The notes under the pieces: model-generated
Databases searched by the model: none
What the model was told of the DNA's origin: nothing
The model's input: the letters and a program-made list of their open reading frames with translations, nothing else
Shown here: positions 7,894-21,995 of the stretch, piece after piece
Layout of the letters: each line of letters begins with the position of its first letter
Numbering within the stretch: position 1 is the first letter of the stretch
Made by a program: the position numbers and the translations under genes
DNA from: Flexibacter flexilis DSM 6793
GTDB taxonomy: Bacteria; Bacteroidota; Bacteroidia; Cytophagales; Flexibacteraceae
NCBI RefSeq assembly: GCF_900112255.1
Contig: NZ_FOLE01000002.1
Span: 1 to 64,000 of the forward strand
DNA length: 64,000 bases
Direction of reading: 5' to 3'

Positions 7894-10800
7894 ATGTTTA
7901 AAAATCCATTTTCGTTAGATGGCCGTATCCGTCGAAAAGAATACGGTATTACGCTGCTATTCAGCATAATATCCGCCTGTATTCTTCACTTGATTTTATC
8001 AAAATACAGCCTACCTTTTGTAGAAATTATTCTTATGCTTCCGCTGGTTTGGCTCGCACTTACGCAAGGCTCAAAACGTTGCCATGATTTGGGGGTGAGT
8101 GGCTGGTTTCAATTTATTCCGTTTTACCCTTTTGTCATGCTTTATGTGGACGGGCAAAAACGTGAAAATGATTATGGCCTTTCTCCCAAATACGAAAACG
8201 TAGCCGAAGCCAACATTAAAGAAGAAACGCAAGCCCGCATTGAAATCATGACGGCATTTGCGGAAAATATCGGTACAGGTAACTTTGATGTGGAACTAAC
8301 CAGTACCAATGACGACGACAAACTTACGTTGGCATTGGTGGGAATGCGCGACAAACTGCGTGATGTAAATATGCGCGACCAACAACGCCGCTATGTGAAT
8401 GATGGCCTCGCCCAATTGGTAGAGATTATGCGTTCGGGAGAAGAATCCGAACAACTGTATCACCATGTATTATCGTTCATTATCAAATATTTAGATGCTA
8501 ATCAAGGCGGTCTTTTCTTGCTCGAAACCGATAGTTCAGGCAAAGAATATCTGGAAATGGTGGCGTGCTATGCTTTCAACAAACGAAAACATTTGCACAA
8601 AAGATTAGAAAAAAATGAAGGCTTAGTGGGCCAGTGTATTATCGAAAAAGATATTATTTACATGACCAAAGTGCCGCAAAATTATGTGCAAATTCGTTCG
8701 GGACTCGGCGGCAGTACGCCAAGTTGTTTGCTTATCGTACCGCTCAAATACAACGACAAAATTTATGGCGCATTAGAAATTGCAGCTTTTAAGCCTTTTG
8801 AGCAATATCGTATTCATTTTGTGGAGCGTTTGGCCGAAAGTTTGGCCTCTACGGTGTCTGGTCGCAAAACCAATGAGCAAACGCTGAATTTATTAAATGA
8901 TGCGCAAATGCAAGCCGAGCAAATGCGTGCGCAAGAAGAAGAAATGCGCCAAAATATGGAAGAGTTGCAGGCCACACAAGAAGAAATGGAACGCAAAGAA
9001 CGCGAGCATTTGCAAGAAATAGAACGCCTTCAACAACTCCACGAAGACAACATGACGCAAGTACAGGCGCAAAATGACCGCATAGCCGAAAGCGAAAAAC
9101 AACTCAAAAAAATGAGTGCGGAAATGCAAAGCCAGTTGGAGGCTATCGAAAATTCGATGCTTGTGGTGGAATTTGACATGAACCGTACATTCGTACGTGC
9201 CAATGACCAATTCCTAAAACTTTTTGGCTATACCCCAACCGAAATGCATGGTATGTACCACAAAAATTTACTCCCAGCACAGGGAACAGATTTTGGTGAA
9301 TATGAAAAGCTTTGGGAAACGCTTTGGGAAGGCAAATCCGTACGCAATACCTTCCGCCGCAGGGCCAAAGACGGCAGCGACGTTTGGCTGGAAGGGGTTT
9401 ACACGCCTATCAAAGACGAACAAGGCCGCATAATAAAAATATTGAAGTTGGCTGTAGATGTTACCAAAAATAAACAATTGGAGGCCGCCGAACGCGAACA
9501 TATCGAAGAGTTGCGTGCGCATGAAGAAGAGTTACGCCAAAATATGGAGGAAATGAAAGCCATTCAGGAAAATCTGAACAAGAAAAACATTGAATCCCTG
9601 CAACTCATGGCCGAGCTTAATGCTCGTATTGAAATAGTAAGCAAAGCTGCTATCCTTTCGGAGTCAGATACTTACGGAAACATCACACTCGTCAACGAAA
9701 AAATGCTGCAAATAACAGGCTATACACGTGAAGAACTGATAGGCAAACCACACAGCATTTTGCGCCACCCCGAAACGCCCAAAGAAGTGTTTAAGGAAAT
9801 GTGGGCAACCATCAAAGCAGGCAAAGTATTCCAAGGAATTTACCGTAATCGTCGCAAAGATGGCTCTACTTATTGGGTAGATGCCACTATCGCGCCTGTA
9901 ATGGGCTTAGACGGCAAACCAGAGAAGTATATTAGCGTACGATTCGATATTACGCAAGCCAAAGAAGCCGAAATCGCTATGACGGAACTACTCAACGATG
10001 CGCAAGAACGTACGATCCAAATAATGAAAAGCGAAGCCGAACTCGAAGCACGTATAGCCGCCCTCAACGAAACGGCTATTCTTTCGGAAGCTGATATTTA
10101 CGGCAATATTACATTTGTCAATAAAAAACTCTTAGAAATTACTGGCTATACAGAAGAAGAGCTAATCGGCAAACCGCACAACATTTTGCGCCACCCCGAA
10201 ACACCAAAAGAAGTGTTTAAGGAAATGTGGGCGACCATCAAAGCAGGCAAAATATTTAGGGGAAAATATGCGAATCGCAAAAAAGACGGTTCGGCTTATT
10301 GGGTAGATGCTACCATCGCGCCAGTGCTTGACATGGGCGGCAATCCAGAAAAATACATTGGTATTCGCTTCGACATGACCGAGTCTGTAAAAGCAAACCA
10401 AGAAATACGACAGCTTTTTGAAGAGTCGCAGCAAAAAACGGAAGAATTGTTGGCCACCGAAGAAGAAATCCGCCAAAACATGGAGGAAATGAAAGCGATT
10501 CAGGAATCAGTAGCCAATAGCGAAGCAAAACTCAAAAGTGTGCTGGATTCAGCCAATTTCATTATCATGACCGTACAGCTCGACGGAATTATTAGCTACC
10601 TGAACCCTGTTGCGGAAAAAGCCTTAGGCTACAAGGCCAGCGAATTGGTAGGCAAACAAACCCCTGCCATCTTCCACGACCCAGCAGAAGTAATTCAAGC
10701 GGCCAAAGAAATGAGTAAAGAATTAGGTCGCGAAATAACTCCAATGGAACTGTTTGTTATCAAACCTTCACAAGGTCAGGTTTTTGAAAAAGATTGGACT

Positions 10801-10920
10801 TTTATAAGTAAAAACAAAAAGAAATTCCCTGTACATTTGAGCCTTTCGGGCATCAAAGATGGGAAAGGTAACTTTGTTGGTTTTGTAGGAATTGGGTCGC
10901 TACTTAAATCAAAAAAATAA
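7894..10920 (+). CDS. DUF805-HAMP-GAF-PAS(x4) membrane signalling protein without kinase
   Basis: The order in this 1008-residue protein is: a DUF805 membrane domain (1-100, opening MFKNPFSLDGR, with three hydrophobic segments and GSKRCHDLGVSGW); a HAMP-like segment (about 112-165, IGTGNFDVEL then DDDKLTLALVGM); a GAF domain (about 168-330, with GLVGQCI and LIVPLKYNDKIYGALEIA); a coiled coil rich in EEMRQNMEELQA; PAS1 (about 418-530); a coiled coil; PAS2 (about 577-690) and PAS3 (about 721-835), near-identical and both with GYTxEELIGKPHxILRHPETP; a coiled coil; PAS4 (about 880-1005). No histidine kinase, GGDEF, methyl-accepting or DNA-binding domain follows, and the stop comes just after PAS4. 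The GKPHxILRHPxxP motif is typical of Aer-type, redox-sensing PAS domains. It probably senses a signal and passes it to a separate partner, which is inference. Confidence 0.9.
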   Translation: MFKNPFSLDGRIRRKEYGITLLFSIISACILHLILSKYSLPFVEIILMLPLVWLALTQGSKRCHDLGVSGWFQFIPFYPFVMLYVDGQKRENDYGLSPKYENVAEANIKEETQARIEIMTAFAENIGTGNFDVELTSTNDDDKLTLALVGMRDKLRDVNMRDQQRRYVNDGLAQLVEIMRSGEESEQLYHHVLSFIIKYLDANQGGLFLLETDSSGKEYLEMVACYAFNKRKHLHKRLEKNEGLVGQCIIEKDIIYMTKVPQNYVQIRSGLGGSTPSCLLIVPLKYNDKIYGALEIAAFKPFEQYRIHFVERLAESLASTVSGRKTNEQTLNLLNDAQMQAEQMRAQEEEMRQNMEELQATQEEMERKEREHLQEIERLQQLHEDNMTQVQAQNDRIAESEKQLKKMSAEMQSQLEAIENSMLVVEFDMNRTFVRANDQFLKLFGYTPTEMHGMYHKNLLPAQGTDFGEYEKLWETLWEGKSVRNTFRRRAKDGSDVWLEGVYTPIKDEQGRIIKILKLAVDVTKNKQLEAAEREHIEELRAHEEELRQNMEEMKAIQENLNKKNIESLQLMAELNARIEIVSKAAILSESDTYGNITLVNEKMLQITGYTREELIGKPHSILRHPETPKEVFKEMWATIKAGKVFQGIYRNRRKDGSTYWVDATIAPVMGLDGKPEKYISVRFDITQAKEAEIAMTELLNDAQERTIQIMKSEAELEARIAALNETAILSEADIYGNITFVNKKLLEITGYTEEELIGKPHNILRHPETPKEVFKEMWATIKAGKIFRGKYANRKKDGSAYWVDATIAPVLDMGGNPEKYIGIRFDMTESVKANQEIRQLFEESQQKTEELLATEEEIRQNMEEMKAIQESVANSEAKLKSVLDSANFIIMTVQLDGIISYLNPVAEKALGYKASELVGKQTPAIFHDPAEVIQAAKEMSKELGREITPMELFVIKPSQGQVFEKDWTFISKNKKKFPVHLSLSGIKDGKGNFVGFVGIGSLLKSKK

Positions 10921-10926
10921 AAGCGT

Positions 10927-10964
10927 AAAAAAGCGTTCGGATGTCAATATCTGAACGCTTTTTT
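10927..10964. terminator. Bidirectional terminator
   Basis: AAAAAAGCGTTC pairs with GAACGCTTTTTT. It lies between the multi-PAS gene and the convergent Lrp-type gene and has A/T runs on both sides. Confidence 0.8.
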
Positions 10965-10966
10965 AT

Positions 10967-11449
10967 TTATAAAACTACTTTATAAGCCGTAGCACGTTTT
11001 ACTTCTTTCATTACAAAATTACTGTGATATTGCCCTACATTCGGGATATTTGCAATCACATTTACAATAAAATCATTGTAATCAGAAATATTTTTGGCCA
11101 CAATTTTGAGCATATAATCATACGTTCCCGAAATACTAATTACTTCCAATATTTCAGGGCGTGCCGCTACTGCTGCTTCAAAATTCATTAGCGAAGTTTT
11201 TGACTGCTCTTTCAGAACAATATTACAATAAACAGCCAATTCTAAACCCACCAATTCACGGTCTATAATGGCCACATAACTCTGAATTATTTTATTTTCT
11301 TCCATGTATTTAATACGCTCATACGTTGGCGTAAAAGATAGCTTAATGCGGGAAGCAATTTCTTTGACCGAAATCGTAGAATCTTCTTGCAAAATATTGA
11401 TTATATCAACGTCTATTTGGTCGAGTTCAATGCCTTTTTTGTTCTTCAT
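10967..11449 (-). CDS. Lrp/AsnC family transcriptional regulator
   Basis: The protein is 160 residues from the ATG at 11449; the extended frame would need a TTG. An N-terminal winged HTH (about residues 10-60, with ILQEDSTISVKEIASRI and TPTYERIKYMEENKII) is followed by an Lrp-type ligand-binding RAM domain (about 68-150), with the GxxDYMLKIV segment and a terminal EVKRATAYKVVL. Members bind amino acids and regulate amino acid metabolism as multimers. It lies 106 bp after argH on the same strand but behind a hairpin terminator, so it is probably its own unit. Control of the adjacent arginine operon or of itself is plausible but not shown. Confidence 0.92.
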   Translation of the reverse strand: MKNKKGIELDQIDVDIINILQEDSTISVKEIASRIKLSFTPTYERIKYMEENKIIQSYVAIIDRELVGLELAVYCNIVLKEQSKTSLMNFEAAVAARPEILEVISISGTYDYMLKIVAKNISDYNDFIVNVIANIPNVGQYHSNFVMKEVKRATAYKVVL

Positions 11450-11504
11450 TTGGTGTATCAATTTTAGTTTGTATAAAAAACTAATGGGACAAAAATATAC
11501 TAAA

Positions 11505-11533
11505 ATTCCCCTCCAAAAGTTGAGAGGGGAATC
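11505..11533 (-). terminator. Terminator of the arginine operon
   Basis: ATTCCCCTC pairs with GAGGGGAAT. On the minus strand it is followed by TTTTAG. It lies between argH and the Lrp gene. Confidence 0.6.
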
Positions 11534-11567
11534 TGGTTATTAGGTGTGCCCACAGACAAATATACAC

Positions 11568-12884
11568 TTATTTTCGTACAATTTGCTCAAAAACCTGTGC
11601 AAAAGCCTTTCCAATAGCCTCATTTTGTAAGTTCCCGATGCTGCCCGCGTGTGTGTGATGCACGTTTCGGTCAGCTACAAACGTTTTATTTTCGATTTGT
11701 TTTCCAATTTTTTGGTAAGCGTCCCGAAACGGCAAACCTTTTAGCACTTCCGCATTGACGGCTTCCACGCTAAACAAATCGTTGTATTTATCATCAGCTA
11801 AAATATTGTCTTTCACACGGATATGTTCCAACATGAAAGCCGTAATTTGCAAACAACTTTGCAGTGTTTCGATGGCTGGGAACAAACATTCTTTCGTAAG
11901 TTGGCCGTCGCGGTGATAGCCCGAAGGCAAATTATTCGTAAGCAATGTTAGTTCGTTGGGCACGGCCTGAATGCGGTTACATTTGGCACGCACCAACTCA
12001 AAAACATCTGGATTTTTTTTGTGGGGCATAATGCTACTGCCCGTCGTCAGCTCGTCAGGAAATGAGATAAATCCAAAATTCTGATTCATATACAAACATA
12101 CGTCGTAGGCAAATTTGGAAAGCGTAGCGGCAATATTAGCCAGAGCCTGCGCCACTATTTTTTCGGTTTTGCCGCGCGTCATTTGCGCATAAACTACGTT
12201 GTAATTCAAGCTATCAAAACCCAATAATTCGGTTGTAAATTCTCTGTCCAGTGGGAACGAAGAACCATAACCAGCACCCGAACCAAGCGGGTTTTTATTA
12301 CACACTTTATAGGCTGCCAAAAGCGTTTCCAAATCGTCGGTAAGCGACTCGGCATAAGCCCCAAACCAAAGCCCAAAAGAAGACGGCATCGCAATTTGAA
12401 AATGCGTATAACCCGCCAATAATTTATCTTGATGCGCCTGACTTAATTCTAATAATTTAGCAAAAAGAACGCGTGTATCTTCGGCTATTTCCTGAATTTT
12501 GGCACGCAAAAAAAGTTTAATATCCAACAAAACTTGGTCGTTGCGAGAGCGGCCTGTATGTATTTTTTTTCCAGCATCACCAATCTTTTGGGTAAGCATA
12601 AATTCTACTTGCGAATGTACATCTTCTACCCCATCGGCAATGCTAAAATTTCCCGCACGAATTTGCGCCAAAATATGATTTAATTCTTGCTCAACTAATG
12701 TCCATTCTTCGGCAGAAAGAATATTGATTTTGTGTAACATTTGCGCGTGCGCCAACGAGCCAATTACATCGTATTCGGCCAACAAAATATCAAAATCTTT
12801 GTCATTTCCTACCGTAAATTTCTCCACGATTTGCTGATAATTATTCGACGAACCAGCCTCTTTTTGCCAAAGTTTTGTAATCAT
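11568..12884 (-). CDS. argH: Argininosuccinate lyase
   Basis: It splits argininosuccinate into arginine and fumarate, the last step of the pathway. At 438 residues the length is close to the family norm. The fumarase/ASL signature GSSIMPHKKNPD is at 282-293 with the catalytic Ser in it. The general acid/base His is H161 in YTHFQIAMPSS, and KIHTGRSRNDQ is at about 107-117. It is the last gene of the operon, 6 bp after argE. Confidence 0.97.
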   Translation of the reverse strand: MITKLWQKEAGSSNNYQQIVEKFTVGNDKDFDILLAEYDVIGSLAHAQMLHKINILSAEEWTLVEQELNHILAQIRAGNFSIADGVEDVHSQVEFMLTQKIGDAGKKIHTGRSRNDQVLLDIKLFLRAKIQEIAEDTRVLFAKLLELSQAHQDKLLAGYTHFQIAMPSSFGLWFGAYAESLTDDLETLLAAYKVCNKNPLGSGAGYGSSFPLDREFTTELLGFDSLNYNVVYAQMTRGKTEKIVAQALANIAATLSKFAYDVCLYMNQNFGFISFPDELTTGSSIMPHKKNPDVFELVRAKCNRIQAVPNELTLLTNNLPSGYHRDGQLTKECLFPAIETLQSCLQITAFMLEHIRVKDNILADDKYNDLFSVEAVNAEVLKGLPFRDAYQKIGKQIENKTFVADRNVHHTHAGSIGNLQNEAIGKAFAQVFEQIVRK

Positions 12885-12890
12885 TTTTTT

Positions 12891-13970
12891 TTATAAAATA
12901 GAAGATAATAATTTGCAATAAATTTCGATTCCTTCGCGGATTTCATCCACAAAAATAAATTCGTCGCTGCTGTGCGAGCGCAACGAGTTGCCCGGCCCAA
13001 GTTTCACGGTCGGGAAGTTCATGAGTGCTTGGTCGGAGGTGGTCGGCGAGCCATAAATTTTTCTGCCCAAAGCCAAACCCGCCTTTACAAATGGGTGTTC
13101 GGGACTAATCGCCGACGAGTTGAGACGCAACGAACGCGCCGTTACTTCACTGCTAACATGCTGTTTTACAACCGCTAACACATCTGCATTGCGGTATTTA
13201 TCATTGGTTCGGATGTCCACCGTAAACTCGCATTTATCCGAAATAACATTGTGTTGCGAACCCGCCTTAATGATAGTAACCGTCATTTTCACATCGCCCA
13301 AAATCTCTGATTTTTCGGGAAAATGATACGTTCTGAACCATTCAATATCGGCCAACGCCTTGTAAAGTGCATTGTTGTTGTTTTCGTGTGCCGCGTGCGA
13401 AGCCGTGCCATGCGAAACACAATCAAGTACCAAAAGTCCCTTCTCGGCAATAGCCAAGTGCATTTCGGTTGGCTCGCCCACGATGCCCAAATATATTTCA
13501 CCCAACTCATTGGCTATAAGCTCAATACCGCCAGTTCCCGAAACTTCTTCTTCGGCAGTTGCCGCAAAAATTACGTTATAATTGAGCGAAGGCTTATCGT
13601 AATAATACAAAAAAGCGGCCATCAGACTAACCAATGCACCGCCCGCGTCATTGCTTCCCAAACCATATAATTTACCATCTTTTTCTATCGCCTCAAACGG
13701 ATTCAGCGTGTAACCTTTGTTAGGTTTTACCGTATCGTGGTGCGAGTTGAGCAGAACGGAAGGCTTGGCCGCATCGAAATACAAATTTTTAGCCCAAACA
13801 TTATTGCCTTTTCGCTCAAAAGCAATGCCCAATGAGGCGAGCGTATTTTGTAGCAAATCAGCGGTTTTGTCTTCTTGTCGGCTAAACGATTCTATTTCAA
13901 TTAGTTGCTTGAGCGTACTGAGTGCCAAATCGGCTAATTGCGTGGTGCTATTTTGTAAGTGTAGTTCCAT
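12891..13970 (-). CDS. argE: ArgE-type M20 deacylase (N-acyl-citrulline/ornithine)
   Basis: This 359-residue member of the M20 metallopeptidase family has metal and catalytic motifs NSHHDTVKP (about 75-83), YGLGSNDAGGALVSL (about 98-112, metal-bridging Asp) and ATAEEEVSGTGG (catalytic Glu), and an ending FPTVKLGPGNSLRSHSSDEFI that supplies a metal His. In Bacteroidota and Xanthomonas operons with an acyl-ornithine carbamoyltransferase, this enzyme removes the acyl group from N-acyl-citrulline. If the carbamoyltransferase here uses N-succinyl-ornithine, this should be a desuccinylase. Its start overlaps the end of argB by 23 bp. Confidence 0.93.
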   Translation of the reverse strand: MELHLQNSTTQLADLALSTLKQLIEIESFSRQEDKTADLLQNTLASLGIAFERKGNNVWAKNLYFDAAKPSVLLNSHHDTVKPNKGYTLNPFEAIEKDGKLYGLGSNDAGGALVSLMAAFLYYYDKPSLNYNVIFAATAEEEVSGTGGIELIANELGEIYLGIVGEPTEMHLAIAEKGLLVLDCVSHGTASHAAHENNNNALYKALADIEWFRTYHFPEKSEILGDVKMTVTIIKAGSQHNVISDKCEFTVDIRTNDKYRNADVLAVVKQHVSSEVTARSLRLNSSAISPEHPFVKAGLALGRKIYGSPTTSDQALMNFPTVKLGPGNSLRSHSSDEFIFVDEIREGIEIYCKLLSSIL

Positions 13971-14748
13971 AATCGGGAGCGTTTTCGAGTATTTCTACAA
14001 TGTCGTTATCGTTGCAAATCGTGACGGCCTGCACGCCTTTGGCTATGGCCGCAAATGCGTTTTCGAGCTTGGGAATCATGCCGTCGGCTACGATGCCATC
14101 GGCCAAAAGTTGCGTATATTTTTCGGGATTAATGCTGGTAATAAGCGAGTTATCGTCGTTTATATCCGCCAAAACGCCTTTTTTCTCAAAGCAATAAACC
14201 AAGCGTACAGGCTGCGTGGCAGCCAATGCCGTCGCTACCGTCGAGGCGATAGTGTCCGCGTTGGTATTGAGCAACTGGCCTTGCGCGTTGTGCGTAATTG
14301 AGCAAAACACGGGCGTAATTCCTGCCGAAAGTAATTGATTGATTAGCAACGTATTAATTTCTTTAACATCGCCTACCCAACCAAAATCAATTTCACCAAC
14401 GGGGCGTTTTTGGGCTAAAATGCTGTTGCCGTCCGCGCCCGAAAGTCCGATAGCATTACAGCCGTTGGCCTGCAAAGTCGCTACTATTTTTTTATTAATA
14501 AGCCCCGCGTAAATCATCGCCGTTAGTTCCAGCGTTTCGGTGTCCGTAATGCGGCGGCCATTGACCATTTGTTGTACAATTCCGAGTTTATCGGCCAACT
14601 GATTTACTAATTTTCCGCCTCCATGTACTACTATTTTACGGCCTTTGGTACTGGCCACTTTCGCAAGGAAAGCAGCCAGTTTTTCGGGGTCGTTGATAAC
14701 ATTTCCGCCAATTTTAATGACGTAAATTTTCTCTAAGTCCTTAGACAT
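13948..14748 (-). CDS. argB: Acetylglutamate (N-acylglutamate) kinase
   Basis: It phosphorylates N-acylglutamate, step two of arginine synthesis. The protein has 266 residues. The N-terminal IKIGGNVIND carries the ATP-binding Lys, and VVHGGGKLVNQL (about residues 40-51) is the glycine loop for the acyl-amino acid. Late motifs GMIPKLENAFAAI and NTNADTIASTVATAL are also typical. It follows argF' by 10 bp. There is no N-terminal extension of the arginine-inhibited type, so feedback inhibition may be weak or act elsewhere. Confidence 0.95.
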   Translation of the reverse strand: MSKDLEKIYVIKIGGNVINDPEKLAAFLAKVASTKGRKIVVHGGGKLVNQLADKLGIVQQMVNGRRITDTETLELTAMIYAGLINKKIVATLQANGCNAIGLSGADGNSILAQKRPVGEIDFGWVGDVKEINTLLINQLLSAGITPVFCSITHNAQGQLLNTNADTIASTVATALAATQPVRLVYCFEKKGVLADINDDNSLITSINPEKYTQLLADGIVADGMIPKLENAFAAIAKGVQAVTICNDNDIVEILENAPDYGTTLTK

Positions 14749-14758
14749 AAATATTTTA

Positions 14759-15715
14759 TCAAAAAAAGTTTGTTTCCAAAATCTCCTTCAACACAGCTTG
14801 CGCGGCGTAAAGTCGGTTATCGGCTTGTTGCAAAATCAGGGAGTTTTCGCCGTCGAGTAGCGAGTCACTCACTTCCAAATTGCGGCGCACTGGCAAGCAG
14901 TGCATCACTTTGGCGTTGTTGGTAATTTGCATTCTTTCGGGAGTGAGCAACCAATCACCCGACACGGCAGGCGTTTGGCCATAGTCCTCAAACGACGACC
15001 AATTTTTCACATACACGAAATCCGCACCTCGCAACGCCTCATCCTGATTGTGCGTAACTTTCACGCCTTGCGTAAATTCTGTACTCAATTCGTAGCCCTC
15101 AGGGTGCGTAACCACAAAATCAACGTCCGCATTGCGCATCCATTCCGTAAAAGAATTGGCCACCGACTGCGGCAACGGTTTAATATGATGTCCCCACGAA
15201 AGCACCACTTTGGGCTTACTTGGTTTATTCCAATTTTCGGTAATCGTAATAAGGTCGGCAAAGCTCTGCAACGGGTGGCGTGTAGCCGACTCCAGCGACA
15301 CGACAGGCACGCGACAATATTTTATAAACTGGTTGATAACCTTTTCGTTATAATCGTCTTCGCGGCTGGTAAGCGACGGAAAACAGCGAATCCCAATCAC
15401 ATCGCAATACTGCCCCATAACAGCGGCTGCATCTTTGATATGTTCAACTTTTGCGCCATTCATCACCACATTATCATCAAACTCCCAAGTCCAACTTTCT
15501 TGGCCAACATTGAGCGCAATCACGTTCATTCCCAAATTGTTACCCGCTTTTTGGGTGCTTAGGCGCGTGCGCAAACTTTGATTGAGAAACACCAACCCCA
15601 AAGTTTTGCCTTTACCCAAATGTTGGAAACCCAACGGATTTTTTTTGAGAGCCAATGCGTCCTGAAGCATTTGCTCCACACTTTTTACATCGTGTACCGA
15701 AGTGAAATATTTCAT
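14759..15715 (-). CDS. argF': N-acyl-L-ornithine carbamoyltransferase (probably N-succinylornithine-specific)
   Basis: This 318-residue transcarbamylase has the carbamoyl phosphate motif SLRTRLST (47-54), RHPLQSFADL (about 146-155) and the late HCLPVRR. The whole layout, including an aromatic strand QESWTWEF and the AEWMRNADVD-like Trp region, follows the acyl-ornithine group (AOTCase/SOTCase) rather than ordinary ArgF. The residue that sets specificity (Glu92 in Xanthomonas AOTCase, Pro90 in Bacteroides fragilis SOTCase) falls in MNGAKVEHIKD and is Val90 here. In published mutants, Glu92 to Val turned the Xanthomonas enzyme into a succinylornithine enzyme, so succinyl specificity is predicted. 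It sits between argD and argB in the operon. Confidence 0.95.
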   Translation of the reverse strand: MKYFTSVHDVKSVEQMLQDALALKKNPLGFQHLGKGKTLGLVFLNQSLRTRLSTQKAGNNLGMNVIALNVGQESWTWEFDDNVVMNGAKVEHIKDAAAVMGQYCDVIGIRCFPSLTSREDDYNEKVINQFIKYCRVPVVSLESATRHPLQSFADLITITENWNKPSKPKVVLSWGHHIKPLPQSVANSFTEWMRNADVDFVVTHPEGYELSTEFTQGVKVTHNQDEALRGADFVYVKNWSSFEDYGQTPAVSGDWLLTPERMQITNNAKVMHCLPVRRNLEVSDSLLDGENSLILQQADNRLYAAQAVLKEILETNFF

Positions 15716-15742
15716 TGATTTTGTTGAATATAATTAATTGAG

Positions 15743-16882
15743 TTAGTGTTCAAATTCTGTAATCATTACTTGTTTAAATGCCTCCACGAAAATATCTATT
15801 TCGGCAGTCGTAACATTGAGCGCGGGCAAAATTCTAAGCGTATTTTTGTTAGAAGCCGAACCCGTAAAAATAAAATGTTCTTTGAGCAAAGTATTACGCA
15901 CATTCGCGCAAGGTGTATCCAATTCAATGCCCACCATTAGCCCCAAAGCACGAATTTCTTTAATGCCCTCAATGCCTTGCAATTGGCTTACCAAATAGTC
16001 GCCAATTTTCGCTGCATTTTCCACTAAATTTTCGGATTTTATGACTTCCAAAACGGCAATTGCAGCGGCCACAGCCAAATAATTTCCGCCAAAAGTAGTG
16101 CCTAACATGCTATGTTTTGCCTTAATTTCTGGGCTAATTAGCACGCCCGCCACAGGAAAACCATTGCCCATTCCTTTGGCCGTTGTGATAATATCGGGGC
16201 GAACATTGGCGAATTGATGTGCAAAAAATTTGCCCGAGCGTCCGTAGCCTGATTGTATTTCATCGCAAATCATTATTGCGCCAAATTGTTGGCACAATTG
16301 CTTTATTTTTTGCAAAAATGACTCGGTCGGAATATTAACGCCACCAACGCCTTGTATGCCTTCAATTATGACGGCTGCTATTTGCTCATCAAAGGCATTT
16401 TCTAAGGCTTTTTCATCGTTAAAAGGCAAGAAAATAATATTTTCTGTTTCGTTTACGGGTGCAACAATACTTTTGTCGTCGGTTGCTGCTACGGCCATCG
16501 AAGTACGACCATGAAACGATTTAGAAAACGAAATAATTTTCTTTTTTCCTGTGTGAAATGATGCTAATTTAATAGCATTTTCGTTTGCTTCTGCGCCCGA
16601 ATTACACAAAAATAAATTATAATCATCGTAGCCACTTGCCTGCCCCAAAAGCGTAGCTAATTGCTGTTGCATCGGGATTTGAACGGAATTAGAATAAAAA
16701 CCAATTTCGTTGAGTTGATTCGTAAGTTTTGCTACATAATGTGGATGACTATGACCAATAGAAATAACAGCGTGTCCGCCGTACAAATCCAAATATTTTT
16801 GGCCTTTTTCGTCCCACAAATAACTACCTTTTGCCTTTACTGGCGTGATGTTGAATAACGGATATACGTCAAACAGTTTCAT
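15743..16882 (-). CDS. argD: N-acylornithine aminotransferase
   Basis: This PLP-dependent class III aminotransferase (379 residues) makes N-acylornithine from its semialdehyde with glutamate as amino donor. The PLP Lys is K236 in ITTAKGMGNGFP. The Asp that holds the pyridine nitrogen is D207 in ICDEIQSGYGRSG. NSGAEANENAIKLA (95-108) and SFHGRTSMA are also typical. The gene is 12 bp after argC. The acyl preference (acetyl or succinyl) cannot be read directly and should follow that of the carbamoyltransferase. Confidence 0.95.
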   Translation of the reverse strand: MKLFDVYPLFNITPVKAKGSYLWDEKGQKYLDLYGGHAVISIGHSHPHYVAKLTNQLNEIGFYSNSVQIPMQQQLATLLGQASGYDDYNLFLCNSGAEANENAIKLASFHTGKKKIISFSKSFHGRTSMAVAATDDKSIVAPVNETENIIFLPFNDEKALENAFDEQIAAVIIEGIQGVGGVNIPTESFLQKIKQLCQQFGAIMICDEIQSGYGRSGKFFAHQFANVRPDIITTAKGMGNGFPVAGVLISPEIKAKHSMLGTTFGGNYLAVAAAIAVLEVIKSENLVENAAKIGDYLVSQLQGIEGIKEIRALGLMVGIELDTPCANVRNTLLKEHFIFTGSASNKNTLRILPALNVTTAEIDIFVEAFKQVMITEFEH

Positions 16883-16894
16883 TTATTTTCTGTT

Positions 16895-17863
16895 TTAATA
16901 TACAATTGATTTTAGTTTCAAACCTGCTGTTTCTTCTATTCCAAACATCAAATTCATGTTCTGAATGGCTTGGCCAGAAGCACCTTTTAGCAAGTTGTCT
17001 ATTGCCGTATGAATTACTAATTTATCGCCTTCTTTTTCCAACGAAATAACGCACTTATTCGTATTTACTACTTGTTTTAAATCGATGTTTTTATCCAAAA
17101 CAAAAGTAAAAGCAGATTCGGCATAATATTCTTTGTACAAATGATAAATTTCTTTCAAATCATGCGTAATTGTAAGCATGGAACTTGTAAAAATTCCGCG
17201 TGCAAAATCGCCGCGCCAAGGCGTAAAATAAATATTTTTACCAAAATTTGGTTGCAAAGAAACCAGCGTTTTTTGCATTTCGTCCAAGTGCTGATGCGTC
17301 AGCGTTTTGTATGGCGAAATGTTGTTGAGTCGCCAGCTAAAATGCGAAGTTTCTTGCAATTTTTGGCCTGCGCCTGTGCTACCTGTAACGCCCGTAGTAT
17401 AAACTTCGGAGAGCAAACCTTGTTGCGCCAAAGGCAAAAGACCAAGCTGAATGGCTGTGGCAAAACAACCTGGGTTAGCGATATTTTGCGACATTCTGAT
17501 TACATCTCGCTGATATTCAACCAATCCGTACACAAACTCGCGGTCTCCGCATTGGCCGTCCAGACGAAAATCGTTGCCCATGTCTATCACAAACGTATTG
17601 GCATCGAGTGTATTTTCCGACAACCAAACGCGACTTTCGCCATGCGACAAACACAGAAACAACACATCTACTTTGGGCGTGTCGTCACAAAAACGCAATT
17701 GTGTTTCGCCGACCAAATCTCTGTGAATTTCGTACAAATATTTGCCTGCTTGACTCTTGCTATTGGCAAAAATCAATTCGGCAAAAGGGTGACCAAGCAA
17801 AAGGCGAATTGTTTCGCCTCCCGTGTAGCCTGCTGCCCCAATGATACCCGCTTTTATTTTCAT
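16895..17863 (-). CDS. argC: N-acylglutamyl-phosphate reductase
   Basis: This 322-residue protein carries out the NADPH-dependent reduction of N-acylglutamyl phosphate. The Rossmann motif GAAGYTGGETIRLL is near the N-terminus. The catalytic Cys is C133 in NPGCFATAIQL. STGAGQKLQETSHF and a late HQHLDEM segment fit the family. The start codon abuts the argG stop with no gap, so translation is likely coupled. Confidence 0.96.
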   Translation of the reverse strand: MKIKAGIIGAAGYTGGETIRLLLGHPFAELIFANSKSQAGKYLYEIHRDLVGETQLRFCDDTPKVDVLFLCLSHGESRVWLSENTLDANTFVIDMGNDFRLDGQCGDREFVYGLVEYQRDVIRMSQNIANPGCFATAIQLGLLPLAQQGLLSEVYTTGVTGSTGAGQKLQETSHFSWRLNNISPYKTLTHQHLDEMQKTLVSLQPNFGKNIYFTPWRGDFARGIFTSSMLTITHDLKEIYHLYKEYYAESAFTFVLDKNIDLKQVVNTNKCVISLEKEGDKLVIHTAIDNLLKGASGQAIQNMNLMFGIEETAGLKLKSIVY

Positions 17864-19063
17864 TTATTCAGCAGAAAAAGTATTATTTACTTGATGGAAA
17901 ATGGCAACATTATTCCCAAATATTTTTGAAAATCCTTTTACATCTTCACCGCTCCAAGTATTATTCATTTCGCCGTAACTTCCGAACTTAGCAGACATCA
18001 AATCATTCTCCGACTCAATGCCATTGAGAACAAAGCGATACGGCAATAAAGTTACAAATACTTTTCCGTTTACAGTTTCTTGTGTTTGGCCTAAAAAGGC
18101 TTCAATATTGCGCATTGCAGGTTCAAAAAATTGTCCTTCGTGCAACCAAGAACCGTAATAAGCAGACAATTGTTCTTTCAAAAACAGTTGCCATTTGCTA
18201 AGCGTATGTTTTTCGAGCAAATGATGCGCTTTAATTGTAATAATTGGAGCGGAAGCCTCAAAACCAACGCGTCCTTTAATGCCAATAATCGTATCACCTA
18301 CGTGAATATCGCGACCAATTCCGAACGGTGCAGCTATTTCCTGCAAACGTTGAATAGCATTCACGGGGCTTGCAAATGTTTCTTCATTAATGCCCACTAA
18401 TTCTCCTTTTTCAAAAATTAAAGTCAAATTTTCTGGAGCATTTTTAGTTAGTTGTGTCGGGAACGATTCTTCGGGCAAATAACCGTGTGAAGTAAGCGTT
18501 TCTTTTCCGCCCACAGACGTACCCCAAAGGCCTTTATTGATAGAATATTTTGCTTTTTCAAAATTCATTTCAACGCCATGTTCTTTGAGAAAATCTATTT
18601 CGGCCTCACGCGACAATTTCAGGTCACGAATTGGCGTAATTATCTCAATTTTTGGAGCTAAAATATTAAAAATCATATCAAAACGAACTTGGTCGTTTCC
18701 TGCGCCAGTGCTACCATGTGCAATGTATTCTGCACCCAATTTTTTGGCATAATTGGCAATAGAAGTAGCCTGATAAACGCGTTCTGCACTGACAGAAAGC
18801 GGATAAGTATTATTTTTGAGAATATTACCAAAAATCAAATATTTGATACAGTTTTGATAATAATTATCTGTTTCGTCCAGACAAACAAAAGATTTTGCAC
18901 CAAGAGACAAGGCTTTTGCTTCGATTTCTTGGATTTCTTCGGTAGAAAAACCGCCCGTATTTACGGTTACGGCATGAACTTCTAAGTTTTTGACCTTAGA
19001 CAAATAAATAGCACAAAAAGAGGTGTCCAAACCACCACTAAAAGCAAGAACTACTTTTTTCAT
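17864..19063 (-). CDS. argG: Argininosuccinate synthase
   Basis: It joins citrulline and aspartate with ATP to give argininosuccinate. The protein is 399 residues with the P-loop-like AFSGGLDTSFCAIYLSK at about 8-24, the AHGSTGAGNDQVRFD citrulline/aspartate site, and SINKGLWGTSVGG. It is the second gene of the operon, 9 bp after the GNAT gene. The order argG before argC is usual for this phylum. Confidence 0.97.
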   Translation of the reverse strand: MKKVVLAFSGGLDTSFCAIYLSKVKNLEVHAVTVNTGGFSTEEIQEIEAKALSLGAKSFVCLDETDNYYQNCIKYLIFGNILKNNTYPLSVSAERVYQATSIANYAKKLGAEYIAHGSTGAGNDQVRFDMIFNILAPKIEIITPIRDLKLSREAEIDFLKEHGVEMNFEKAKYSINKGLWGTSVGGKETLTSHGYLPEESFPTQLTKNAPENLTLIFEKGELVGINEETFASPVNAIQRLQEIAAPFGIGRDIHVGDTIIGIKGRVGFEASAPIITIKAHHLLEKHTLSKWQLFLKEQLSAYYGSWLHEGQFFEPAMRNIEAFLGQTQETVNGKVFVTLLPYRFVLNGIESENDLMSAKFGSYGEMNNTWSGEDVKGFSKIFGNNVAIFHQVNNTFSAE

Positions 19064-19072
19064 TTTAATTGA

Positions 19073-19705
19073 TTATACGAAGAATAAAATATTTTTTACT
19101 AATTGTTTTTTGATGCGGAGCAAACGCTCATACACTTTGCTTTTTTGCTTGAAATGCAAGGCGGTTTCGGCGGGTGTATAGTGGTCTTTAGGGTCGTAGA
19201 GCATGGCAGTACACAAGCAATTTTTGCGGTCTTTGCTGGTGAGAATATCATAATTCACGCAGCTTTTGCAGCTTGCCCAAAAGGTCTCGTCGGTGGTCAG
19301 CTCCGAGTAAGTAACGGGTTCGTAACCCAAATCGCTATTGATTTTCATGACGGCAAGCCCCGTAGTAAGGCCAAAAATTTTGGCGTTGGGGTATTTGCTG
19401 CGCGAAAGTTCAAATATTTTTTGCTTAATGCCTTTGGCTACGCCATGTTTGCGGTAGTCAGGAGACACGATAAGGCCAGAATTGGCCACAAACTCACCGT
19501 GTTGCCACGTTTCGATATAACAAAAGCCCGCCCATTTTTCGCCATCCAGAGCTATCACGGCTTCACCTTGTTCCAATTTTTTGGCGACATATTCAGGACT
19601 TCTCTTAGCAATACCCGTTCCACGCGCTTTGGCAGAAGCGGCCATTTCCTCGCAAATTTGCTCGGCATAAATGGTATGAGTGCTATTAGAAACAGTAATT
19701 ATCAT
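19073..19705 (-). CDS. GNAT acyltransferase at the head of the arginine operon
   Basis: The protein has 210 residues. A GNAT domain spans about 15-125, with GLIVSPDYRKHGVAKGIKQ as the acyl-CoA loop (RKHGVAKG) and a preceding substrate strand. The N-terminal pattern RSPEYVAKKLEQGEAVIA resembles the GNAT part of ArgA-type N-acetylglutamate synthases. The C-terminus is unlike ordinary GNATs: it has a CxxC-x13-CxC cluster (SCKSC and CLC) that could bind a metal. No argA or argJ is visible in the window. As first gene of the operon it is the best candidate for the first step, acylation of glutamate (by acetyl-CoA, or by succinyl-CoA if the pathway is succinylated). Function is inferred from position. 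Confidence 0.85.
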   Translation of the reverse strand: MIITVSNSTHTIYAEQICEEMAASAKARGTGIAKRSPEYVAKKLEQGEAVIALDGEKWAGFCYIETWQHGEFVANSGLIVSPDYRKHGVAKGIKQKIFELSRSKYPNAKIFGLTTGLAVMKINSDLGYEPVTYSELTTDETFWASCKSCVNYDILTSKDRKNCLCTAMLYDPKDHYTPAETALHFKQKSKVYERLLRIKKQLVKNILFFV

Positions 19706-19737
19706 TGCTAAACTATATTATTGGTCGTTTTGTATCG

Positions 19738-19745
19738 CAAATGTA
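19738..19745 (-). promoter_or_regulatory. Candidate -7 box of the arginine operon
   Basis: The minus strand reads TACATTTG, an exact TAnnTTTG fit, 33 bp before the ATG of the first gene. No good -33 TTTG is found at 19-21 nt; a TTTG lies 25 nt upstream. Confidence 0.45.
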
Positions 19746-19773
19746 GATACTTTATCTATTAAAATAAAAACAA

Positions 19774-19790
19774 AAAGATAAAATATCTTT
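19774..19790. promoter_or_regulatory. Inverted repeat upstream of the arginine operon
   Basis: AAAGATA-AAA-TATCTTT is a perfect 7-3-7 inverted repeat, about 30 bp upstream of the TACATTTG box on the minus strand. It is a possible operator. It does not match the E. coli ARG box. Confidence 0.35.
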
Positions 19791-19898
19791 CATGTTAGCG
19801 AGATTACAGAAAAAATATGCTTGGTAATACTGCCATAACAAGAAATTGCAAAGGATTCCGTAATTTGCGGCCATTTGTAATACCAAAAGTTTTCAGAC

Positions 19899-21995
19899 GT
19901 GCTAAAAAAATTTATACCTACTATATTGTTAGGGTGTGTAATTTCGACAAACTACGCCCAAACATTACAAGAAAAACAAACCAGTGCTTCTAATATCGCC
20001 ATGACTATCAACAACTTGGGCATGATAGGCAACGCGTTCAAGGGAAGTTATTATACAGGCTCACCTTCGTGTCAGTTCCCTGCCAAATCGGGCGTAGAAC
20101 ATTTGTTTCAAGGCGGCCTTTGGGTTGGCGGCAAAAACAGCAACGGTGAAATTTCCGTTACGACAGGTGCATTTGAGTCGTCGGCGGGCTATTCGGCGGG
20201 TTCTCCCAACTTTGAAATGACAGCCCCTGTTGGTGCAACTTTGGGCGAACGCTCTTCATTATTCAATAGTCCTTTGTATAATCCAAATGCTATTTCGCAC
20301 CAAGATTTTTATGCCGACTTTACGGACAGAAATTTGGTAGTACCGGGCACGTCCAAGCCCGTAACCCAAACAGCTACAGGAACTACTATTCCACACAAAC
20401 CATTGGGTTTGGATGTGCATTTTGAGAGCTACAACTGGAACTTTGTTTTTGCCAACTTCTTTGTAATCTTAAACTACGAAATCACCAATAACAGCACACA
20501 AGATATTGATAGTGTGTATTTTGCAACATGGGCAGACGGCGTAATTCGTAACGTAAACCGTACGGCACCAGGCGGAACAGCCTTTTTCAACAAAGGCGGT
20601 AACGGCTACGTGGATTCTTTGTATTTGGGTTATGAATTTGATGCGGCAGGCGATGTGGGCTTTACAGAAAGTTTCTTTGCCCTCAAATATTTGGGCGCGT
20701 CCGATGTGGATGGCACCAACAAAGACCCTCGTTTTAGTCCAAATTTCAAAGTACATTATAATACATGGGAATTTGGCTCAGTTGGTTTGTATGCAGCACC
20801 TCAATCTGATTTGGAACGCTATGTAAAAATGACTGACGGCCTTAACTACCGCAGCGATTGGAATACCATCCAAACACAAATCAGCCAACCAAGCAACCGT
20901 TCTACGCTTATCACAGCTGGGCCTTTCAAAAAAATAAGAAGCGGCGAAAAAGTAACTGTTTCGTTTGCTGTAATTTGTGCTAAAAAAGTAGATGACGGGT
21001 TGCCAAACACAGCCAACACCGTAGCACAAAAAGCCAATCTTTTGAAAAATACAAGCTGGGCACAAACAGCCTACAACGGCGAAGACGTAAACGCTAACGG
21101 TATTTTGGACGAAGGCGAAGACGTGGACGAAAACGGCAAAATTACACGCTTTGTATTGCCATCACCTCCAAACATTCCGCCAACAAAAGTAATTGCTCGC
21201 GATAACGCTATTGATATTTATTGGACAAAATTTGCCGAAGAATCCGTTGATCCAATTTCGCGTAAAAAAGATTTTGAAGGATATAAAATCTACAAAAGCA
21301 AGCTCGGTTATGATGTACAAAGTACCATCGATGTGGCATCTAACTTAGAACTGGTGGCTACTTACGATAAACCAGGCGACAAAATTGGTTATGACAATGG
21401 TTTTGAGCCGATTACATTAGCCAAACCTGTAACATTTGGCGAAGATACAACAACGAAATATTACTATAAATATACACTAAACAATATCCAAAACGGCTGG
21501 CAATATGTAGTGGCGGTTACGGCCTTCGACCAAGGCGACGAAGTTAACAACCTTGACATTTTGGAAAGTGCGCCACTGGCCAACGTGTATCATGTGTTTG
21601 CAGGCAAACCAGCCAACGGCAACATCAAATCAACCGACCCATTTGTTTACCCGAATCCGTATTACGCGGGAGCTTCGTGGGAAGGCCCAAGTACACGCGC
21701 CGAAGACAAAAAACTGATGTTTGCCAACTTACCAAAGCGTGCGCGTGTGCGTATTTTCTCGTTGGCGGGTGATTTGATAGACTCTTTTGAGCATAACCAG
21801 TCGTACAAAGGCGAAGATGCTGGCTGGTATTCCACTTATTCAAGCGTTTCTAACACGGTATTTTCGGGTGGCGAACACGCTTGGGATTTGCTCTCGGCCA
21901 ACAGCCAAATCATTGCCAGAGGCTTGTATTTGTACTCGGTAGAGGATTTGGACAACAACAAAGTATTTCAAGGCAAATTTGCCGTAATCAAATAA
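19899..21995 (+). CDS. Secreted protein with type IX secretion-like C-terminal domain
   Basis: The protein has 698 residues with a GTG start. The signal peptide is about residues 1-20 (ending NYAQ). The middle part is beta-rich and unassigned, apart from an EF-hand/dockerin-like calcium loop DVNANGILDEGED (about 396-408) and a fibronectin-like segment starting NIPPTKVIARDNAIDIYW. Near residue 582 comes DPFVYPNPYY, the usual opening of the C-terminal part of Bacteroidota secreted proteins. A FlgD-like/type IX sorting domain follows, with NLPKRARVRIFSLAGDLI and the end ARGLYLYSVEDL...GKFAVIK. It is probably exported to the surface; its activity is unknown. A terminator follows at 22018. Confidence 0.85.
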   Translation: MLKKFIPTILLGCVISTNYAQTLQEKQTSASNIAMTINNLGMIGNAFKGSYYTGSPSCQFPAKSGVEHLFQGGLWVGGKNSNGEISVTTGAFESSAGYSAGSPNFEMTAPVGATLGERSSLFNSPLYNPNAISHQDFYADFTDRNLVVPGTSKPVTQTATGTTIPHKPLGLDVHFESYNWNFVFANFFVILNYEITNNSTQDIDSVYFATWADGVIRNVNRTAPGGTAFFNKGGNGYVDSLYLGYEFDAAGDVGFTESFFALKYLGASDVDGTNKDPRFSPNFKVHYNTWEFGSVGLYAAPQSDLERYVKMTDGLNYRSDWNTIQTQISQPSNRSTLITAGPFKKIRSGEKVTVSFAVICAKKVDDGLPNTANTVAQKANLLKNTSWAQTAYNGEDVNANGILDEGEDVDENGKITRFVLPSPPNIPPTKVIARDNAIDIYWTKFAEESVDPISRKKDFEGYKIYKSKLGYDVQSTIDVASNLELVATYDKPGDKIGYDNGFEPITLAKPVTFGEDTTTKYYYKYTLNNIQNGWQYVVAVTAFDQGDEVNNLDILESAPLANVYHVFAGKPANGNIKSTDPFVYPNPYYAGASWEGPSTRAEDKKLMFANLPKRARVRIFSLAGDLIDSFEHNQSYKGEDAGWYSTYSSVSNTVFSGGEHAWDLLSANSQIIARGLYLYSVEDLDNNKVFQGKFAVIK

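Follow-up and report, generated by a model that had tools for sequence, protein, structure and literature searches.

The first 64,000 nucleotides of a Flexibacter flexilis DSM 6793 contig (the window) carry a complete arginine operon, and we conclude with high confidence that it works through succinylated intermediates and that its carbamoyltransferase (TC) is an N-succinyl-L-ornithine carbamoyltransferase. The evidence lies in the residues of TC, in the operon and its gene set, and in a genome where neither ArgJ nor a further ornithine-type carbamoyltransferase was detected. In the proposed pathway a GNAT acyltransferase would place a succinyl group onto glutamate, ArgB, ArgC and ArgD would convert N-succinylglutamate to N-succinylornithine, and TC would turn this into N-succinylcitrulline. 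An M20 hydrolase would then remove the succinyl group to yield citrulline, from which ArgG and ArgH would produce arginine; at every step the acyl group is assigned by analogy with published relatives.

Results

Specificity residues of the carbamoyltransferase

The TC ORF is read on the minus strand from an ATG at 15715 to 14759 and encodes 318 aa, while stop codons interrupt the plus-strand reading of the same interval. Its translation confirms the Val that the first-pass annotation had reported at residue 90, within the motif MNGAKVEHIKD. When TC was compared with PDB sequences using phmmer, the best match was the B. fragilis SOTCase 1js1 (347.6 bits), with X. campestris AOTCase rows at 183-187 bits. 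V90 stands opposite Pro of 1js1 and opposite Glu of the X. campestris AOTCase row; the PDB also has an X. campestris row with Val in this column (3l06). A separate MAFFT alignment gave the same columns, setting V90 against B. fragilis Pro90 and X. campestris Glu92, and TC is 50% identical to the B. fragilis enzyme versus 34% to that of X. campestris. Both methods thus agree with the annotation's pairing of Glu in the Xanthomonas AOTCase with Pro in the B. fragilis SOTCase, and alignment with the two enzymes puts Val, not Glu, at the specificity position.

A review of transcarbamylases (PMC4581275) distinguishes AOTCases, with Glu92/Asn185/Lys302, from SOTCases, with A/S/P/V/Q, P and V/I/E at these places, and GapMind (PMC7311316) links succinyl preference to a position 90 occupied by S, P, A or V. 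In both accounts this single residue switches the preference, and as they present it, the rule given in the first-pass annotation, that replacing Glu with Pro, Ser, Val or Ala gives succinyl specificity, holds. The AOTCase signature is absent from TC, which in the alignment reads V90, P182 (at the Asn185 position) and E281 (at the Lys302 position). All three published markers read succinyl, which supports the assignment of TC, on its sequence, to the SOTCase type.

Among the contacts of the succinyl group in B. fragilis SOTCase the review gives Arg178. Six of the seven substrate contacts checked are kept in TC (W75, F112, E142, H177, K237 and R277), and the single altered one is this arginine, which is Lys179 in TC and is also Lys in X. 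campestris AOTCase. The B. fragilis succinyl contacts H176, R178 and R278 are accordingly represented by H177, K179 and R277. The proline-rich loop of the knotted carbamoyltransferases is present in the TC sequence alignment (HIKPLPQSV versus HPRPLPQAV). Specificity mutants were reportedly measured by Shi et al. in 2007, as relayed by the review and by GapMind, and to our knowledge the evidence for Val comes only from the X. campestris mutant. Among the papers listed in literature searches by pathway name, not by residue, none was seen to assay an enzyme that naturally carries Val90.

Organization of the operon

TC lies within a run of eight genes on the minus strand, from 19705 to 11568, in the order GNAT-argG-argC-argD-TC-argB-argE-argH (Table 1). 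Adjacent genes are separated by 0 to 27 bases, except for a 23-base overlap of argB with argE, and the run is therefore very likely a single transcript. The argG product scores slightly below the NCBIfam cut-offs (264.7 against 268.2 bits for TIGR00032 and 290.7 against 334 for PRK00509) and matches Pfam Arginosuc_synth. The hairpin that follows argH is possibly the end of the operon, judged solely by its stem length and place; the pattern scan returned 12 terminator-like sites, against 12.0 expected in shuffles. Rfam gave no match at gathering thresholds over 10000-21000.

Table 1. Features of the arginine operon, in window coordinates.
Feature	Position	Strand	Evidence
GNAT acyltransferase, 210 aa, probable N-succinylglutamate synthase (ArgA2/BT3761 type)	19073..19705	-	Pfam, relatives, literature
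argG, argininosuccinate synthase	17864..19063	-	NCBIfam TIGR00032, PRK00509; Pfam Arginosuc_synth
argC, N-acyl-gamma-glutamyl-phosphate reductase	16895..17863	-	TIGR01850 276.3 bits, over cut-off 233.6
argD, N-acylornithine aminotransferase	15743..16882	-	TIGR00707 361.6 bits, below cut-off 410
TC, predicted N-succinylornithine carbamoyltransferase (SOTCase type), Val90/Lys179/Pro182/Glu281	14759..15715	-	phmmer vs PDB and three marker residues
argB, probable N-succinylglutamate kinase	13948..14748	-	TIGR00761 210.2 bits, over cut-off 151.3
argE-like M20 hydrolase, probable N-succinylcitrulline desuccinylase	12891..13970	-	PDB 3ct9 390.6 bits
argH, argininosuccinate lyase	11568..12884	-	TIGR00838 346.4 bits, over cut-off 279.5
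terminator-like hairpin, 12 pairs, directly after argH	11503..11534	-	pattern scan

This gene order, with all eight genes on a single strand, recurs in 48 of the 80 loci taken from named records (the best 80 of at least 594 pattern matches), and in 44 of the 61 among these that extend more than 6 kb before and more than 5 kb after TC. The remaining named loci have at least one gene without a match within the locus.

Beyond the hairpin, on the same strand as argH, lies a gene for an Lrp/AsnC-type regulator (11461-10967), whose product is a candidate arginine regulator. A relative of it was found within 20 of the 80 named loci (again the best 80 of at least 594), mostly in Chryseobacterium- and Flavobacterium-type records, and on the strand opposite to TC in 18 of the 20. 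Further along, 7894-10920 encodes a 1008-aa protein with DUF805, GAF and several PAS domains, in which a Pfam scan shows no kinase domain. On the other side, a 698-aa ORF with a GTG start (19899-21995) adjoins the operon on the opposite strand and has no Pfam match at E 0.001.

Addition and removal of the acyl group

The GNAT protein scores slightly above the cut-offs of Pfam Acetyltransf_1 and Acetyltransf_7, and a relative is encoded near TC on the same strand in 64 of the 80 named loci (best 80 of at least 594). Three genomes of the same class as that of the window have a TC that shares 92% (L116), 91% (L115) and 86% (L114) identity with B. fragilis SOTCase, and each contains one strong relative of GNAT (52-58% identity), one of the M20 hydrolase (52-55%) and one of ArgB (49-50%). 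An enzyme of this GNAT type has been named ArgA2 and predicted to be an N-succinylglutamate synthase (PMC9026213), a role that PMC7311316 also supports. The discoverers of a Caldithrix relative, Cabys_1732, described it as an N-acetylglutamate synthase on the basis of unpublished results (PMC5317091), which makes the donor used in the first step the weakest link of the chain. By analogy with the B. fragilis ArgB discussed in PMC7311316, the argB product is probably an N-succinylglutamate kinase.

The M20 hydrolase has one outstanding match in the PDB, 3ct9, at 390.6 bits, the next entry scoring 64 bits. This structure, which we take to be B. thetaiotaomicron BT3549, is labelled an acetylornithine deacetylase; the protein of the window is probably an N-succinylcitrulline desuccinylase.

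Search for other routes in the genome

The genome is 99.84% complete and was found to encode two OTCace-domain proteins, TC and PyrB. The latter matches PRK00856 at 403.7 bits, over a cut-off of 263, and a second, ordinary ornithine carbamoyltransferase was rejected, PyrB being the only other candidate. An acetyl-type first step was likewise rejected: ArgJ had no match in the genome in a search that was positive in 10 of 14 control genomes, and nothing exceeded the cut-off of the model for classical ArgA, a weak control that passes in only one of the 14; its matches, both below cut-off, were argB (63.2 bits) and a GNAT protein encoded elsewhere in the genome (25.2 bits). The genome thus combines an ArgA2-type GNAT with no detected ArgJ or classical ArgA, the latter judged by that weak model. 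Taken together, the marker residues, the content of the operon and the alternatives sought and not found in the genome support the earlier proposal that the whole operon acts on succinylated substrates, the acyl group of the steps other than TC being assigned by analogy.

Variation among relatives

We compared TC with 175 relatives. Of these, 18 belong to its order and 80 are those from named records; 28 were among the top scorers in a phylum search over 395 genomes, 20 came from regions fetched from the same search, and 29 represent families of the phylum that are more distant. The named-record loci are, judged by title, mostly from Bacteroidota and, as the best 80 of at least 594 pattern matches, skewed to close relatives; L069 (Beijerinckiaceae), L092 (labelled 'bacterium') and L093 (Chlorobiota) are the non-Bacteroidota or unlabelled ones. 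The phylum search gave many strong matches that had no locus in the survey, of which the 20 were fetched, and genomes of the phylum whose matches were all weak (about 1e-20 to 1e-47) fell outside the survey. One gene, from genome G037, was entered twice (L012 and L117). For combinations of residues a set of 126 relatives was used, from which ten weak matches (L022-L028 and L030-L032) and the query itself (L113) had been dropped and L029 is absent.

Among the 175 relatives (which include the best 80 of at least 594, as do the other counts of relatives below), Val is the commonest residue at position 90, with 71 V, 64 A, 10 P and 10 S. The rarer residues, 9 T, 7 Q, 2 I and 2 G, account for 20 of the 175; Q is in the review's SOTCase list (PMC4581275), and all four are outside the S/P/A/V set of GapMind (PMC7311316). 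Glu was found at this position in none of the 175, a sample that leans towards close relatives. A quick tree of the relatives, the query and two references, in which 53 of 172 inner branches are poorly supported, requires at least 26 changes at position 90. The position therefore varies freely, yet it is never Glu among the relatives read.

At the position of B. fragilis Arg178, 130 of the 175 have Lys and 42 have Arg; Lys being the commonest residue there, Lys179 does not set TC apart. Indeed, Val90/Lys179/Glu281 is the commonest combination near TC (62 of the 126 relatives). Glu281 is carried by 67 of the 71 sequences with Val90, and functional coupling of the two was considered on nine independent pairs of the tree, of which two changed the same way, none the opposite way and seven were unchanged (sign test, p 0.5). 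These pairs are too few to tell, and we do not claim coupling.

Five of the 175 (L005, L011, L012 and others) combine Ala90 with the Lys kept at the place of X. campestris Lys302, a mixture that the published markers do not cover. Within the order, only 19 of 39 genomes (the window's own included) have a strong TC match, as do 4 of 11 in its own family; the order's other genomes may belong to arginine auxotrophs or may use another carbamoyltransferase.

Discussion

The points that run counter to a succinyl pathway are Lys179 at the Arg178 position, the acetyl call for Cabys_1732, the T, Q, I or G at position 90 in 20 relatives of the survey, and the argG and argD scores below NCBIfam cut-offs. 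It is extremely unlikely, in our judgement, that the operon uses acetylated intermediates as in Xanthomonas and that the names N-acetylornithine carbamoyltransferase and acetylglutamate kinase are right. Such a pathway would fit the Lys that TC shares with X. campestris and the report of Cabys_1732 as an N-acetylglutamate synthase (PMC5317091), but V90, P182 and E281 all mark the succinyl type and the closest solved structure is the B. fragilis succinyl enzyme, by 347.6 versus 183-187 bits. The nearest NCBIfam model is indeed N-acetylornithine carbamoyltransferase, but its 284.8 bits fall below the model cut-off of 288.

The replacement of Arg by Lys at a succinyl contact also bears on how TC would treat its substrate. 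Enzymes with Val90/Lys179/Glu281 could, lacking Arg178, bind the succinyl group in another way than the B. fragilis enzyme does, or could take more than one kind of acyl group, which we regard as rather unlikely. Very unlikely is the specific case of a relaxed TC that takes both N-acetyl- and N-succinyl-L-ornithine and leaves the GNAT protein and the hydrolase to set the acyl group. That case would accommodate the Lys, and among the papers listed in the searches by pathway name no assay of a native enzyme with this combination turned up, but the review and GapMind describe a preference that is swapped by one residue.

The succinyl pathway has been described before. GapMind (PMC7311316, 2020) reports arginine synthesis via succinylated intermediates in most Bacteroidetes and uses the residue-90 argument; what the first-pass annotation predicted is therefore already published for this phylum and very probably right. 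In that account 70 of 106 Bacteroidetes genomes have a gap-free pathway, 69 of the 70 being of the Bacteroides type; 61 of these 69 carry S, P, A or V as residue 90, which GapMind takes as confirmation. Mutant fitness data accompany the succinyl route in B. thetaiotaomicron, Echinicola vietnamensis and Pedobacter. With the enzyme in print since 2006 and the phylum-wide pathway since 2020, the operon of the window is another member of a published pathway, and, the route being known for most of the phylum, an ordinary one. The assignment corrects the names suggested by family models (acetylglutamate kinase, N-acetylornithine carbamoyltransferase and acetylornithine deacetylase), and the survey adds that none of 175 relatives, including the best 80 of at least 594, has Glu at the specificity position.

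Compared with known enzymes, TC belongs to the same family as X. campestris AOTCase and shares with it the Lys at the Arg178 position, but differs in having V, P and E for Glu92, Asn185 and Lys302. It resembles B. fragilis SOTCase (1js1/2fg6/2fg7) more closely, in identity over nearly its whole length and in the three succinyl-type markers, while differing in Val for Pro90, Lys for Arg178 and Glu for Ile at the Lys302 position. Genomes with a TC close to that of B. fragilis share their class with the genome of the window; in one of these (G272, with 92% identity between its TC and the B. fragilis enzyme) about 26 kb separate TC from GNAT, whereas here the TC gene sits inside one full operon. 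The operon resembles the Bacteroidetes succinyl pathway as described by GapMind, with the same predicted steps and the same gene types.
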